Part shown: piece after piece, positions 35,601 to 39,824 of the stretch
Position numbering within the stretch: position 1 is the stretch's first letter
How the letters are laid out: each line of letters opens with the position of its first letter
Assembly: GCA_028279555.1 (NCBI GenBank)
Contig: JANQNO010000005.1
Location: 124,001-188,000, forward strand
Reading direction: 5' to 3'
Length of the DNA stretch: 64,000 bases
DNA from: Sphingorhabdus sp.
GTDB taxonomy: Bacteria; Pseudomonadota; Alphaproteobacteria; Sphingomonadales; Sphingomonadaceae
Notes under the pieces: generated by a model
The model's input: only the letters and a program-made list of their open reading frames with translations
The model's database searches: none
Told to the model about the DNA's origin: nothing
Translations under genes and position numbers: made by a program

Positions 35601-37553
35601 ATGTCCAAGGCTGACCGTCCCGATACGCCCAACAGCGCGTCCCGCTTCAATGAGGAGAAGCAGACCTATGCCGTGCGCGGTGTGGGGCAGCCTGACCTGA
35701 AAAAAGGCGTGGCGGCGATCCGCAATGTCTGGGAAACGCTGCCCGCCAAACCCGGCGTCTACCGCATGCAGGATGCGCGCGGCGATGTGCTCTATGTCGG
35801 AAAGGCGCGGGCGCTCAAAAACCGGGTTAGCAACTATACGCAGGTCGAACGGCTGCCCAATCGTTTGAAACGCATGGTGGCGCAAACGCGCAGCATGACG
35901 ATCGTTACCACCAACAGCGAAGCGGAGGCATTGCTGCTGGAGGCACAGCTGATCAAGAAGCATCGCCCGGCCTATAATGTACTGCTGCGCGACGATAAAA
36001 GCTTTCCTTTCATCTTGCTGCGTGCGGATCATGATTTTCCGCGCATCCACAAGCATCGCGGCGCGCGCCGGCACAAGGGTGAATATTACGGCCCCTTTGC
36101 CAGCGCCGGTTCGGTCAACCGGACGCTCAATGCGCTCGAAAAGCTGTTTCTGCTGCGCTCCTGTTCCGACAGCTATTTCAACAACCGCGACCGGCCCTGT
36201 CTGCTCTATCAGATCAAGCGTTGTTCGGCACCCTGCGTCGACCGGATCAGCAGGGAGGATTATGCGCAGCTTGTGGCCGATGCCAAGGCGTTCCTCTCGG
36301 GCAAGTCGACCCAGGTCCAGTCCAAGCTTGCAGGGGAAATGGAAGCAGCGTCCGAGGCGCTCGATTTCGAACGCGCGGCGATGCTGCGCGACAGGCTGAA
36401 AGCGCTGACCTTTATTCAGGGTTCGCAGGCGATCAACGCGCAGGGGCTGGGCGATGCCGATATATTCGCCCTGGCGCGCAAGGAGGGCCATGTCTGCATC
36501 CAGGCCTTTTTCATTCGCGGCGGGCAGAATTGGGGGCACCGCGCTTTCTTCCCGCGCCATGCCGGGGATGATGGCGAGGATGTGATTCTCGCCAACGTCG
36601 TCGCGCAATTTTACGAAGATGTACCGCCCGCAAAGCTGGTGCTATTGGACCGCAAGCTGCCTGATATGACCGTGATGGCCGAAGCGCTGAGCGAGCGGGC
36701 GGGGCGCAAGGTCGAGCTGAGCGTGCCACAGCGCGGCGACCGTGTCCGATTACTGCGGCAGGCGGCGCGCAATGCCGAAGAAGCGCTCGACCGCAAAATT
36801 GCAGAGAGCGCCACGCAGAACAAGCTGCTGACCGAAATGGCCGAGCTGTTCGAACTGTCTGAACTGCCGGCGCGGATCGAGATATACGACAACAGCCATA
36901 TTCAGGGGAGCAATGCGCTCGGCGCAATGGTGGTTGCCGGACCGGAAGGCTTTATCAAGAACCAGTATCGCAAATTCAACATCAAGCGCGGTGAAACCGT
37001 TCCGGGCGATGACTTTGCGATGATGCGCGAGGTTTTTCAGCGGCGGTTTGCCCGCGCTGTGGAAGAGGATCCTGATCGCGAAAAGGATTGGCCAGATCTG
37101 GTGCTGATCGACGGCGGCAAGGGGCAGATGAGTTCTGTCTGCGAGGCGCTGGAAGAGATCGGCGTCGAGGATGTACCGCTCATCGCCATTTCCAAGGGGC
37201 CGGACCGCAATGCGGGAAGGGAAGTGATGCATTTCCCTGACGGGCGGGAGGTCACATTGCCCGCCAATTCGCCGCTGCTTTATTATCTGCAGCGGCTGCG
37301 CGACGAGGCGCACCGGTTTGCCATCGGCGCGCACCGGTCGAAACGCGCCAAGGCCATCACCTCCAGCCCGCTCGATGAAATCCCTGGTATCGGCCCGGCG
37401 CGCAAGAAGGCGCTGCTCCTTCATTTCGGAACTGCCAAAGCCGTGCGCTCGGCCAGCCTGGAGGATTTACAGAAGGCTCCGGGGGTGTCTTCTGCCGTCG
37501 CGCAGAGCGTGTACGATTTCTATAATGGTGCCCACTCTTCGAAACTACCCTAG
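35601..37553 (+). CDS. uvrC: Excinuclease ABC subunit C
   Basis: 650 residues, nucleotide-excision repair incision nuclease. N-terminal GIY-YIG nuclease (KPGVYRMQDARGDVLYVGKA, about 50-70), UVR/UvrB-binding motif (KLAGEMEAASEALDFERAAMLRD, about 245-265), RNase H-like endonuclease (IEIYDNSHIQGSNALGAMVV), and two C-terminal HhH motifs (EIPGIGPARKKALLLHFG). The 41-residue N-terminal extension is longer than in E. coli but typical of alphaproteobacteria. Confidence 0.96.
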   Translation: MSKADRPDTPNSASRFNEEKQTYAVRGVGQPDLKKGVAAIRNVWETLPAKPGVYRMQDARGDVLYVGKARALKNRVSNYTQVERLPNRLKRMVAQTRSMTIVTTNSEAEALLLEAQLIKKHRPAYNVLLRDDKSFPFILLRADHDFPRIHKHRGARRHKGEYYGPFASAGSVNRTLNALEKLFLLRSCSDSYFNNRDRPCLLYQIKRCSAPCVDRISREDYAQLVADAKAFLSGKSTQVQSKLAGEMEAASEALDFERAAMLRDRLKALTFIQGSQAINAQGLGDADIFALARKEGHVCIQAFFIRGGQNWGHRAFFPRHAGDDGEDVILANVVAQFYEDVPPAKLVLLDRKLPDMTVMAEALSERAGRKVELSVPQRGDRVRLLRQAARNAEEALDRKIAESATQNKLLTEMAELFELSELPARIEIYDNSHIQGSNALGAMVVAGPEGFIKNQYRKFNIKRGETVPGDDFAMMREVFQRRFARAVEEDPDREKDWPDLVLIDGGKGQMSSVCEALEEIGVEDVPLIAISKGPDRNAGREVMHFPDGREVTLPANSPLLYYLQRLRDEAHRFAIGAHRSKRAKAITSSPLDEIPGIGPARKKALLLHFGTAKAVRSASLEDLQKAPGVSSAVAQSVYDFYNGAHSSKLP

Positions 37554-37595
37554 GGGCAATCCAGAAAGAGCGTTCAAAGTCCGCTAGCGGGCGTA

Positions 37596-37613
37596 CTAGG
37601 TCACATGACCTAG
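37596..37613. promoter_or_regulatory. Palindrome upstream of the GG-leader peptide gene
   Basis: CTAGGTCACATGACCTAG has perfect 8-base arms around CA. It lies 88 bases before the peptide gene's start, next to a second small palindrome CCGCTAGCGG (37581-37590). It may bind a regulator or form a uvrC-end hairpin. Confidence 0.5.
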
Positions 37614-37700
37614 AGCGGCGAGCCGCAGTTTGGTGTATCCAGCTTCTCTGGTGTGTTTATCCAGAGCAAGAGTTTGCGCCAATTATCTAGGAGAGCATTT

Positions 37701-37856
37701 ATGATCGAAGCGATGTCAAATGAAGAGATTGAATTGATTTCTGGAGGCAAAATTTGGGACAAGTGTAAAACTCCTCTTCACGGCAAACAGAAGGATCACG
37801 GTAAGTCGACGTGTCAAAAGATGATCGAGTGCGTAAAGAAAGTACTCTCTTTCTGA
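37701..37856 (+). CDS. Double-glycine-leader small peptide (bacteriocin-like)
   Basis: 51 residues. The first 16 form a leader ending MSNEEIELISGG, which fits the class II bacteriocin/microcin leader consensus L-S-x-x-E-L-x-x-I-x-G-G cleaved after GG by C39-peptidase ABC exporters. The predicted mature part is 35 residues, strongly basic (nine Lys, two His) with three Cys (mature positions 6, 22, 28) and a hydrophobic C-terminus VKKVLSF. TAGGAGAG precedes ATG 37701, and a strong terminator follows. The gene is AT-rich compared with uvrC. No exporter, immunity or modification gene is adjacent. Confidence 0.75.
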   Translation: MIEAMSNEEIELISGGKIWDKCKTPLHGKQKDHGKSTCQKMIECVKKVLSF

Positions 37857-37881
37857 TTTGATTGACCCGTCAGAGTCAACG

Positions 37882-37912
37882 AAAAAGGCCTCATTGTTGA
37901 GGCCTTTTTTCT
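37882..37912 (+). terminator. Intrinsic terminator after the GG-leader peptide gene
   Basis: AAAAAGGCCTCA pairs with TGAGGCCTTTTTT around a very short loop, with T run included. It works in both directions, since the A run precedes the stem for the convergent YdcH-type gene. Confidence 0.9.
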
Positions 37913-37953
37913 CTGCGGGATAATTTTCCCGCAACGCGATTGGTTGAGCCTGG

Positions 37954-38205
37954 TCAGGTGCCCGCTTTTTCTTTCGACAGTATGTGCTGCACTTCATCGA
38001 GCATGGCCAGCCGCTGCTTCTTCAGATTTTCACTGCGCTCATCGGATGCAGCCTCGATCTCGCTTTCGATCCGGTGAATTTCCCGGTTGGTATCGTGGTA
38101 GCGATCCGCGAGTTTTGCGAAATGATTGTCCGACATTTTCAGCTTGTGGATCAAATCGCTTTCATTTGGAAATTCGTCGTGCAGTTCATGCGGTGTGTGG
38201 CTCAT
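37954..38205 (-). CDS. YdcH family protein (DUF465)
   Basis: 83 residues, short acidic/basic helical hairpin with the pattern ESDLIHKLKMSDNHFAKLADRYHDTNREIHRIE, matching YdcH/DUF465. ATG 38205 is preferred since GGGAG lies about 10 bases before it; the frame stays open upstream without support. Function unknown in the family; small coiled-coil cytoplasmic protein. Confidence 0.85.
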   Translation of the reverse strand: MSHTPHELHDEFPNESDLIHKLKMSDNHFAKLADRYHDTNREIHRIESEIEAASDERSENLKKQRLAMLDEVQHILSKEKAGT

Positions 38206-38393
38206 ACCCATTTCTCCCATATTTGAATCGCTTGCCAATCTAATAGGCCGGACTATGCCAACATTGCGCCAAATCAAAAAGGTGAAATTAATGGCGATGG
38301 GAGACCGGCTTTTCATGCTATTCACCAACCGTTCATCTTGTCGTCCATAGACGAAGCGTTCTATTTCATCGATGAAGCGTTTAGGAGGGATAT

Positions 38394-39824
38394 ATGGGAA
38401 AGCAGCGATCGCCGGGGTTCAAACTGTTTCTGGCAGCTACAATCGGCATATTGCTGATCATTCCTCTCCTGCTGATCTATGCGCTGGTCTATGACCGGCA
38501 AGGACAATCCGACACGGCTCAGGCGGGCATCGCCGATGGATGGGCTGGACCGCAGGTAATGGTTGGGCCTGTTATGGTAATTCCTTACACAACAGACAGT
38601 GTGGAGACGGTGACCGAAAATGGCCGTGAGACATCGCGGACTGTGCGGGTGAAAAAAGAGCTGTTCCTGGCACCGCAAAGTAACACACTAGCAACCACTA
38701 TCAAACCTGACCGCAAGAAGTTCAGCATTTACGAGAGTATTGTTTATGAGGCGGGCAACAGGGGTAACGCAACTTTCACTCTCCCGGTCGATTTTGACCG
38801 CTACGGAATTTCGCGCGAAAGTCTTGATCTGAACAGCGCCGAGTTGCGTTTTGGCATCTCTGACTCACGTGGCCTGCAGGCAGACAGCAAGGTAACAATC
38901 AACGGCTCATCAAGAGAGTTGCAACCGGGCAAAGGTTTGGCCGCAACTAGCGGATCGGGCTTTTTCACATTTGTTGATTGGGATGCGACAGGTTCATTGG
39001 ATGTCAGTTATGAATTTGCCTTTCGCGGTATCAAATCTCTCAGTCTGGTTCCACGTGGAGGAGATACGAGATGGCAAGTGGATTCTAGCTGGACTTCTCC
39101 CAGTTTCGGGGCAGACTACATACCCGATCGGGAAAATGTGAAACGCGACGCAGACGGCTTTGAAGTTAGCTATGCTATCGACAATCTGTCGCTGGGCGAG
39201 GCTATCGCCTCAACGGTTGATCCAGCTCCGCCACCTGTGCTGACAGAGAAGAGCTTTGGCCGATACCAGAGCGAACCGGGCCCAAACAGCACAAATGAAA
39301 GCAAATCCATAGCCATCAGCCTTATTGATCCCGTCAACATCTACAGTCAGGTGGATCGCGCGGTGAAATATGGGTTCCTGTTCATCGGCTTCACCTTCCT
39401 GGCCTTTTTTATGTTCGACGTCGTGGCTGGCGCGAGGGTGGCGGCGGCAGAATATCTGCTCACAGGTGTCGGTCTTGTGCTGTTTTTCGTGCTTCTCCTT
39501 GCCTTTGCCGAAGTGATCGGCTTCATGTGGGCTTATCTGGTTGCGGCGGGCGCGATAACCGGGTTGTTGACGGCCTATTCTGCGGCTGTGCTCAAGAGCT
39601 GGATGCGGGCGCGTGTGATCGGCGGACTGCTGATCGGGCTCTATGCGGTGCTGTATACACTGCTCAATCTGGAGGCTTATTCGCTTCTGATCGGCTCGCT
39701 CCTTCTCTTTGCAGCGCTCGCGATCGTAATGTGGGCGACGCGCAAGATCGAATGGTCATCGGCTGATGACGGCGATGCACCTGGCGAAATTGCGGAAGAA
39801 GAAGCCACCGCTACCGCGGCATAG
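38394..39824 (+). CDS. creD: Inner membrane protein CreD family
   Basis: 476 residues. N-terminal membrane segment (about 10-32), a large periplasmic beta-rich part (35-320) including WAGPQVMVGPVMVIPY and SGFFTFVDWD, then five to six C-terminal membrane helices from VKYGFLFIGFTFLAFFMFDV on and an acidic tail. This order is the CreD/CbrC-like layout. No creB/creC two-component genes are next to it. AGGAGG precedes the start. CreD overexpression is known to give colicin E2 tolerance in E. coli. Confidence 0.9.
   Translation: MGKQRSPGFKLFLAATIGILLIIPLLLIYALVYDRQGQSDTAQAGIADGWAGPQVMVGPVMVIPYTTDSVETVTENGRETSRTVRVKKELFLAPQSNTLATTIKPDRKKFSIYESIVYEAGNRGNATFTLPVDFDRYGISRESLDLNSAELRFGISDSRGLQADSKVTINGSSRELQPGKGLAATSGSGFFTFVDWDATGSLDVSYEFAFRGIKSLSLVPRGGDTRWQVDSSWTSPSFGADYIPDRENVKRDADGFEVSYAIDNLSLGEAIASTVDPAPPPVLTEKSFGRYQSEPGPNSTNESKSIAISLIDPVNIYSQVDRAVKYGFLFIGFTFLAFFMFDVVAGARVAAAEYLLTGVGLVLFFVLLLAFAEVIGFMWAYLVAAGAITGLLTAYSAAVLKSWMRARVIGGLLIGLYAVLYTLLNLEAYSLLIGSLLLFAALAIVMWATRKIEWSSADDGDAPGEIAEEEATATAA

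Follow-up and report, generated by a model that had tools for sequence, protein, structure and literature searches.

Class II microcins such as colicin V (microcin V) and other Gram-negative double-glycine (GG) precursors pair a short, hydrophobic-spaced GG leader with a small cationic core, and a published leader consensus, M(R/K)ELX3E(I/L)X2(I/V)XG(G/A), is quoted in PMC3140520. A survey of E. coli microcins found a C39-peptidase ABC exporter (PCAT) in the same assembly for 81.9% of microcin matches (PMC9746304), so precursors without an assembled exporter are a reported state. The gene described here lies between uvrC and a convergent DUF465 gene in the window, by which we mean the whole 64,000-nt stretch of Sphingorhabdus DNA analyzed, and shares the short leader, close to the consensus quoted in PMC3140520, and the small cationic core. 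Unlike class II microcins, it has no PCAT, membrane fusion protein or immunity gene recognized alongside, no C39 domain in the assembly, a core for which no relatives were found, and Met for Leu in the leader; unlike the E. coli microcins of PMC9746304, it is a solitary sphingomonad peptide with no known relatives. Our search of the literature on sphingomonad double-glycine bacteriocins found no papers. The features referred to below are as follows:

37527-37539, + strand: left copy of a direct repeat, 13 bp long and imperfect (11/13), at the 3′ end of uvrC
37554-37953, strand not applicable: segment of ~400 bp between the uvrC and DUF465 stops, absent in the relative G012
37596-37613, strand not applicable: 8-2-8 palindrome CTAGGTCACATGACCTAG, a 7-bp hairpin in RNA form
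37689-37693, + strand: Shine-Dalgarno-like AGGAG, 7 nt before the ATG at 37701
37701-37748, + strand: double-glycine leader of 16 residues, MIEAMSNEEIELISGG, matched by PF10439 below cut-off and by the leader profile
37749-37853, + strand: basic 35-residue core with 9 Lys, 3 Cys and a predicted C-terminal helix
37854-37856, + strand: stop codon of the peptide ORF
37882-37909, strand not applicable: symmetrical intrinsic terminator hairpin with a perfect 12-bp stem and 4-nt loop
37957-37969, + strand: right copy of the 13-bp direct repeat, in the C-terminal codons of the DUF465 gene
G000:C4:28896-29075, elsewhere in the same genome (9397-9576 of the fetched stretch L151, − strand there): second GG-leader peptide, found with the leader profile

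The 51-codon ORF at 37701-37856 on the + strand has the start, leader form, basic 35-residue core and three Cys that the initial annotation gave it, as well as the strong ribosome-binding site and the upstream palindrome. The leader does end in GG, in keeping with the GG/GA ending of the consensus, but the 12 residues quoted for it were too few, as the full leader has 16. The core contains 9 Lys, no Arg, 2 His, 2 Asp, 1 Glu and 3 Cys and is thus short and cationic, as in GG-leader precursors, and the ORF has a G+C content of 41% vs 57.5% for the whole window. An AlphaFold single-sequence model of the peptide, weak evidence at a pLDDT of 68, predicts helices at residues 7-15, 17-27 and 37-49. 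The annotated strong hairpin is there, in a region with a folding energy of -34.7 kcal/mol (z -5.6); a simple scanner reported no terminator and found no promoter-like site 5′ of the peptide gene. Given the symmetry of this hairpin and the mere 44 nt between its end and the convergent DUF465 stop, it need not belong to the peptide gene alone, contrary to the initial annotation, and is possibly common to both genes. The palindrome, with arms CTAGGTCA-CA-TGACCTAG, is the sole mismatch-free match in the genome, and sites with ≤2 mismatches number 4 per strand, exactly as for a backwards-read control, which does not support a regulator's repeated operator. An Rfam search of 37400-38420 returned 8 matches at E ≤ 5, all under their gathering scores.

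To score the leader we built a profile of 15 positions on 30 leaders, all taken from genomes other than this one and comprising by our count 20 on a fetched stretch with a C39 exporter, 5 from the family of the second peptide (see below) and 5 from other GG/GA ORFs of the genus. The window leader reached 28.3 bits, more than anything else in the window's six reading frames and more than any of 300 dinucleotide shuffles (largest 23.2); because the training leaders were chosen by patterns devised after the window leader was known, and some came via a 7-leader profile that included it, this test is not fully independent. With an earlier version of the profile, differing in two training letters, the second-best 15-mer in the window scored 12.6 bits. 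The score of the window leader, which has Met where Leu is usual, is under the training median (34.6 bits) and within the training range (minimum 25.0). A more permissive GG-leader-plus-SD pattern, written once the window leader was known, had a single match in the window; 4 of 200 shuffles contained one or more, and the 7-leader profile that contains the window leader itself gave it an E of 3.9e-4. The leader part of PF10439 (Bacteriocin_IIc) aligns with residues 2-26 at E 0.031, its 14.7 bits remaining below the cut-off of 27.1, and the rest of the core is unmatched. Across the family this model gave matches at E ≤ 0.1 in 22/199 genomes, none above cut-off, and GG-leader small ORFs were present at 3 of the 20 such loci that we fetched (G250, G195 and G073). 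In these three genomes, 16-residue leaders that start with MI, as does the window leader, lie ≤5 kb from PCATs (MIKNLNEAEVESVTGG, MINQLNDNEISFVSGG and MIKELKSNELEVVAGG, respectively). These similar leaders near PCATs in relatives, together with the profile score, bear out the annotated class II bacteriocin/microcin form, and the gene is very probably an authentic GG-leader precursor.

Searches of 60 other relatives, 396 further genomes of the family, genome contigs, viral contigs, plasmids and phages yielded no homologue of the core, so the orthologues with conserved Cys and leader for which the initial annotation proposed to look did not appear in any of these sets. Searches with the whole peptide gave matches at E ≤ 1 in 17/60 relatives (best 0.044), and 11 of the 19 other places, read by eye, contained no GG-leader ORF. 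Eight of the 396 other family genomes matched at E ≤ 0.1; the best match (G073, E 2.7e-4) falls in a 105-aa open frame that is rich in Arg and that other frames overlap; we rejected it as an orthologue, while the GG-leader pattern had 0 matches in the loci from this search (L071-L077). None of 54 pattern matches in genome contigs and none of 36 in viral contigs was confirmed, plasmids gave 0 matches in the peptide search, the one phage match (E 2) lies inside a head-tail adaptor gene, and NCBIfam, PADLOC and PHROGs returned no match.

The uvrC stop (37551-37553) and the convergent DUF465 stop (from 37954) delimit the segment, both gene names being confirmed by Pfam. We found uvrC in all 41 genus genomes searched, and among 29 uvrC loci of other genomes, each read for ~1.5 kb downstream, DUF465 and CreD genes adjoin in one (L044 of G012, on the same contig as L109), where 3 nt separate the uvrC and DUF465 stops and there is no peptide. 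At eight other CreD loci, neither uvrC nor DUF465 adjoins within the fetched stretches. Since G012, the only relative found with that neighborhood, lacks the segment, it would represent either an insert in the present lineage or a loss in G012. The left copy of the bracketing repeat starts about where uvrC alignments stop, and 1 of 500 junction shuffles produced a repeat as good, in a test made after the repeat had been spotted. The C-terminal tail of this uvrC, in the 37527-37969 region, could not be aligned to any other uvrC found. Outside the own genome, segment DNA had only 20- and 25-bp matches in 397 family genomes, and in plasmid records it had matches of 29-40 bp in 7 records, confined to the surroundings of the terminator hairpin. 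Neither neighboring gene, uvrC or convergent DUF465, resembles an immunity gene, immunity proteins being hard to spot by sequence.

No C39 peptidase domain was detected in the assembly (10 contigs, 99.91% complete) by a search that gave a signal in 8 of 14 control genomes. The genome encodes two ABC_membrane proteins, of 604 and 607 aa, both lacking C39, and neither reaches the cut-off of any listed NCBIfam model. The first comes closest to TIGR02204, an MsbA-related model (759.8 of 780.4 bits), and the second, which is under the cut-off of every listed model, reads as ATM1-like. Against TIGR01193, the bacteriocin/peptide cleavage-export model, both score about half the cut-off, and their alignments start at position 143 or 156, so the N-terminal peptidase part is missing. 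The C39 exporter that accompanies a functional class II microcin was thus not found, and the transporter that, in the view of the initial annotation, the peptide would need elsewhere was not found in this assembly; its proposal that the peptide works as a bacteriocin or pheromone, or as a modified peptide, for which it counted a missing C39 exporter as refuting, is unsupported in the genome as assembled. C39 is found in 17/45 genomes of the genus at E ≤ 0.01, in 12 of them within ORFs >700 aa, as expected of PCATs, and in 118/397 family genomes at E ≤ 0.001. Clear GG small ORFs lie near the PCAT at 4 of the 15 C39 loci fetched, and in G012 (L104) a GG small ORF lies near a stand-alone C39 protein.

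The search for other GG-leader genes in the genome, which had been suggested as a check, uncovered a second precursor between a DUF1287 gene and a patatin-like gene, with the leader MNKISTLSAEDIEHVCGG followed by a core with RFPDGEWVGNSFFPNG. Its family, with the core pattern ..RFPxGEWxGNSFFPNG.., occurs in 9/397 family genomes, and two members compared with Pfam matched no family above cut-off. Leader-profile matches in G008, G014, G015, G024 and G254 lie inside 780-aa ORFs and were discounted. PCATs are present in 7/8 of the other genomes with this family (E 1.2e-29 or better) vs any C39 in 118/397, a co-occurrence with a Fisher p of 0.001 among species that are related and not independent. 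The eighth genome, G090, has the peptide and no C39 match; in G184 the peptide is weakly matched (E 4.4e-6), and the exporter belongs to a different branch, with 42-45% identity to the main group. The PCATs of the seven relatives lie on contigs of 1.5-2.9 Mb and are therefore probably chromosomal. GG/GA small ORFs with an SD accompany five of these seven PCAT loci and are lacking in L173 and L177. Four different GG/GA-leader small ORFs were found by pattern at the PCAT locus of G260 (L174, 9514-12125), and six different ones at that of G105 (L176, 9811-12672), one with a Phe-Pro-rich core. The second-family peptides of G195 and G250 are unlinked to PCAT, indicating that precursors in trans occur and that an orphan position alone means little here.

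Other genomes also have precursors without C39. G013, of the same genus, has no C39 match and keeps two GG/GA-leader ORFs; it also contains a C-terminal PCAT fragment, aligned over 77-97 residues and up to 91% identical to the PCAT of G036. The fragment occupies a 100-codon open frame in the interior of a contig, ~90 nt before one of the leader ORFs. Together, these features show decay of the exporter, with both precursors remaining. On L156 (8825-9430, G013:C26), the C-terminal remnant of the C39 ABC exporter lies directly 5′ of a GA-leader peptide gene. G034 has a GG ORF and no C39 match, and so does G023, where the GG/GA-leader ORF is weak (E 0.41) and the genome 86% complete.

We put at roughly 70% the reading that the gene is an authentic microcin-like GG precursor, stranded by exporter loss or non-assembly; we call it stranded because the assembly has no C39 exporter. 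A PCAT, if present, would bind the leader at its peptidase domain, cut it after Gly15-Gly16 and release from the cell a cationic peptide of 35 residues that contains Cys, with whatever activity its core may have. The gene probably came as part of a small insertion downstream of uvrC; the exporter would since have been lost or would lie on an unassembled replicon. Counted against a stranded precursor are the core without a found homologue, the lack of a recognized immunity gene nearby, the Met for Leu, the score under the training median, the choice of the training set and the cases of G090 and G184; the assembly may also miss a plasmid. The genome as assembled lends no support to a secreted bacteriocin.

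The precursor might instead be in working order, its PCAT lying on a plasmid or in a gap absent from the 10-contig assembly, and the long C39 ORFs in 12/45 genus genomes and the PCATs that accompany the second precursor's family in 7/8 other genomes speak for this; we nevertheless think it unlikely, given the completeness of the assembly, the probably chromosomal position of the seven relatives' PCATs and the exporter decay in G013. It is more improbable still that the GG motif is coincidental and the ORF a small basic cytosolic protein or functionless, as the lack of any orthologue in the sets searched and of a C39 exporter in the assembly could suggest, since none of 300 shuffles reached the leader score, an SD and a terminator are in place, and the same genome holds a second GG precursor whose family is present in other genera.

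The GG/GA-leader ORFs without C39 in this genome, G013, G034 and, weakly, G023 (E 0.41) could also mean that C39-less sphingomonads mature and export GG precursors by a different, unrecognized route. We give this very little credence, as the second precursor's family tracks PCATs, G013 retains a PCAT remnant, G023 is only 86% complete, and the two ABC_membrane exporters of this genome look like general types. Slightly less far-fetched, though still a long shot, is the broader idea that several sphingomonads keep intact GG peptides after C39 loss, through another maturation route or an intracellular role, the window gene being a recruited lineage-specific precursor.

What is new in the stranded precursor is a core without known relatives within a known kind of gene, and it bears on how peptides outlive their exporters. 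Our observations suggest that sphingomonad GG precursors can sit far from their exporters and persist after exporter loss; taken by itself, a GG leader is therefore weak evidence of bacteriocin secretion. Should a hidden exporter or an alternative route exist, this genome, with two precursors and a C39-free assembly, would be a clean place to find it.
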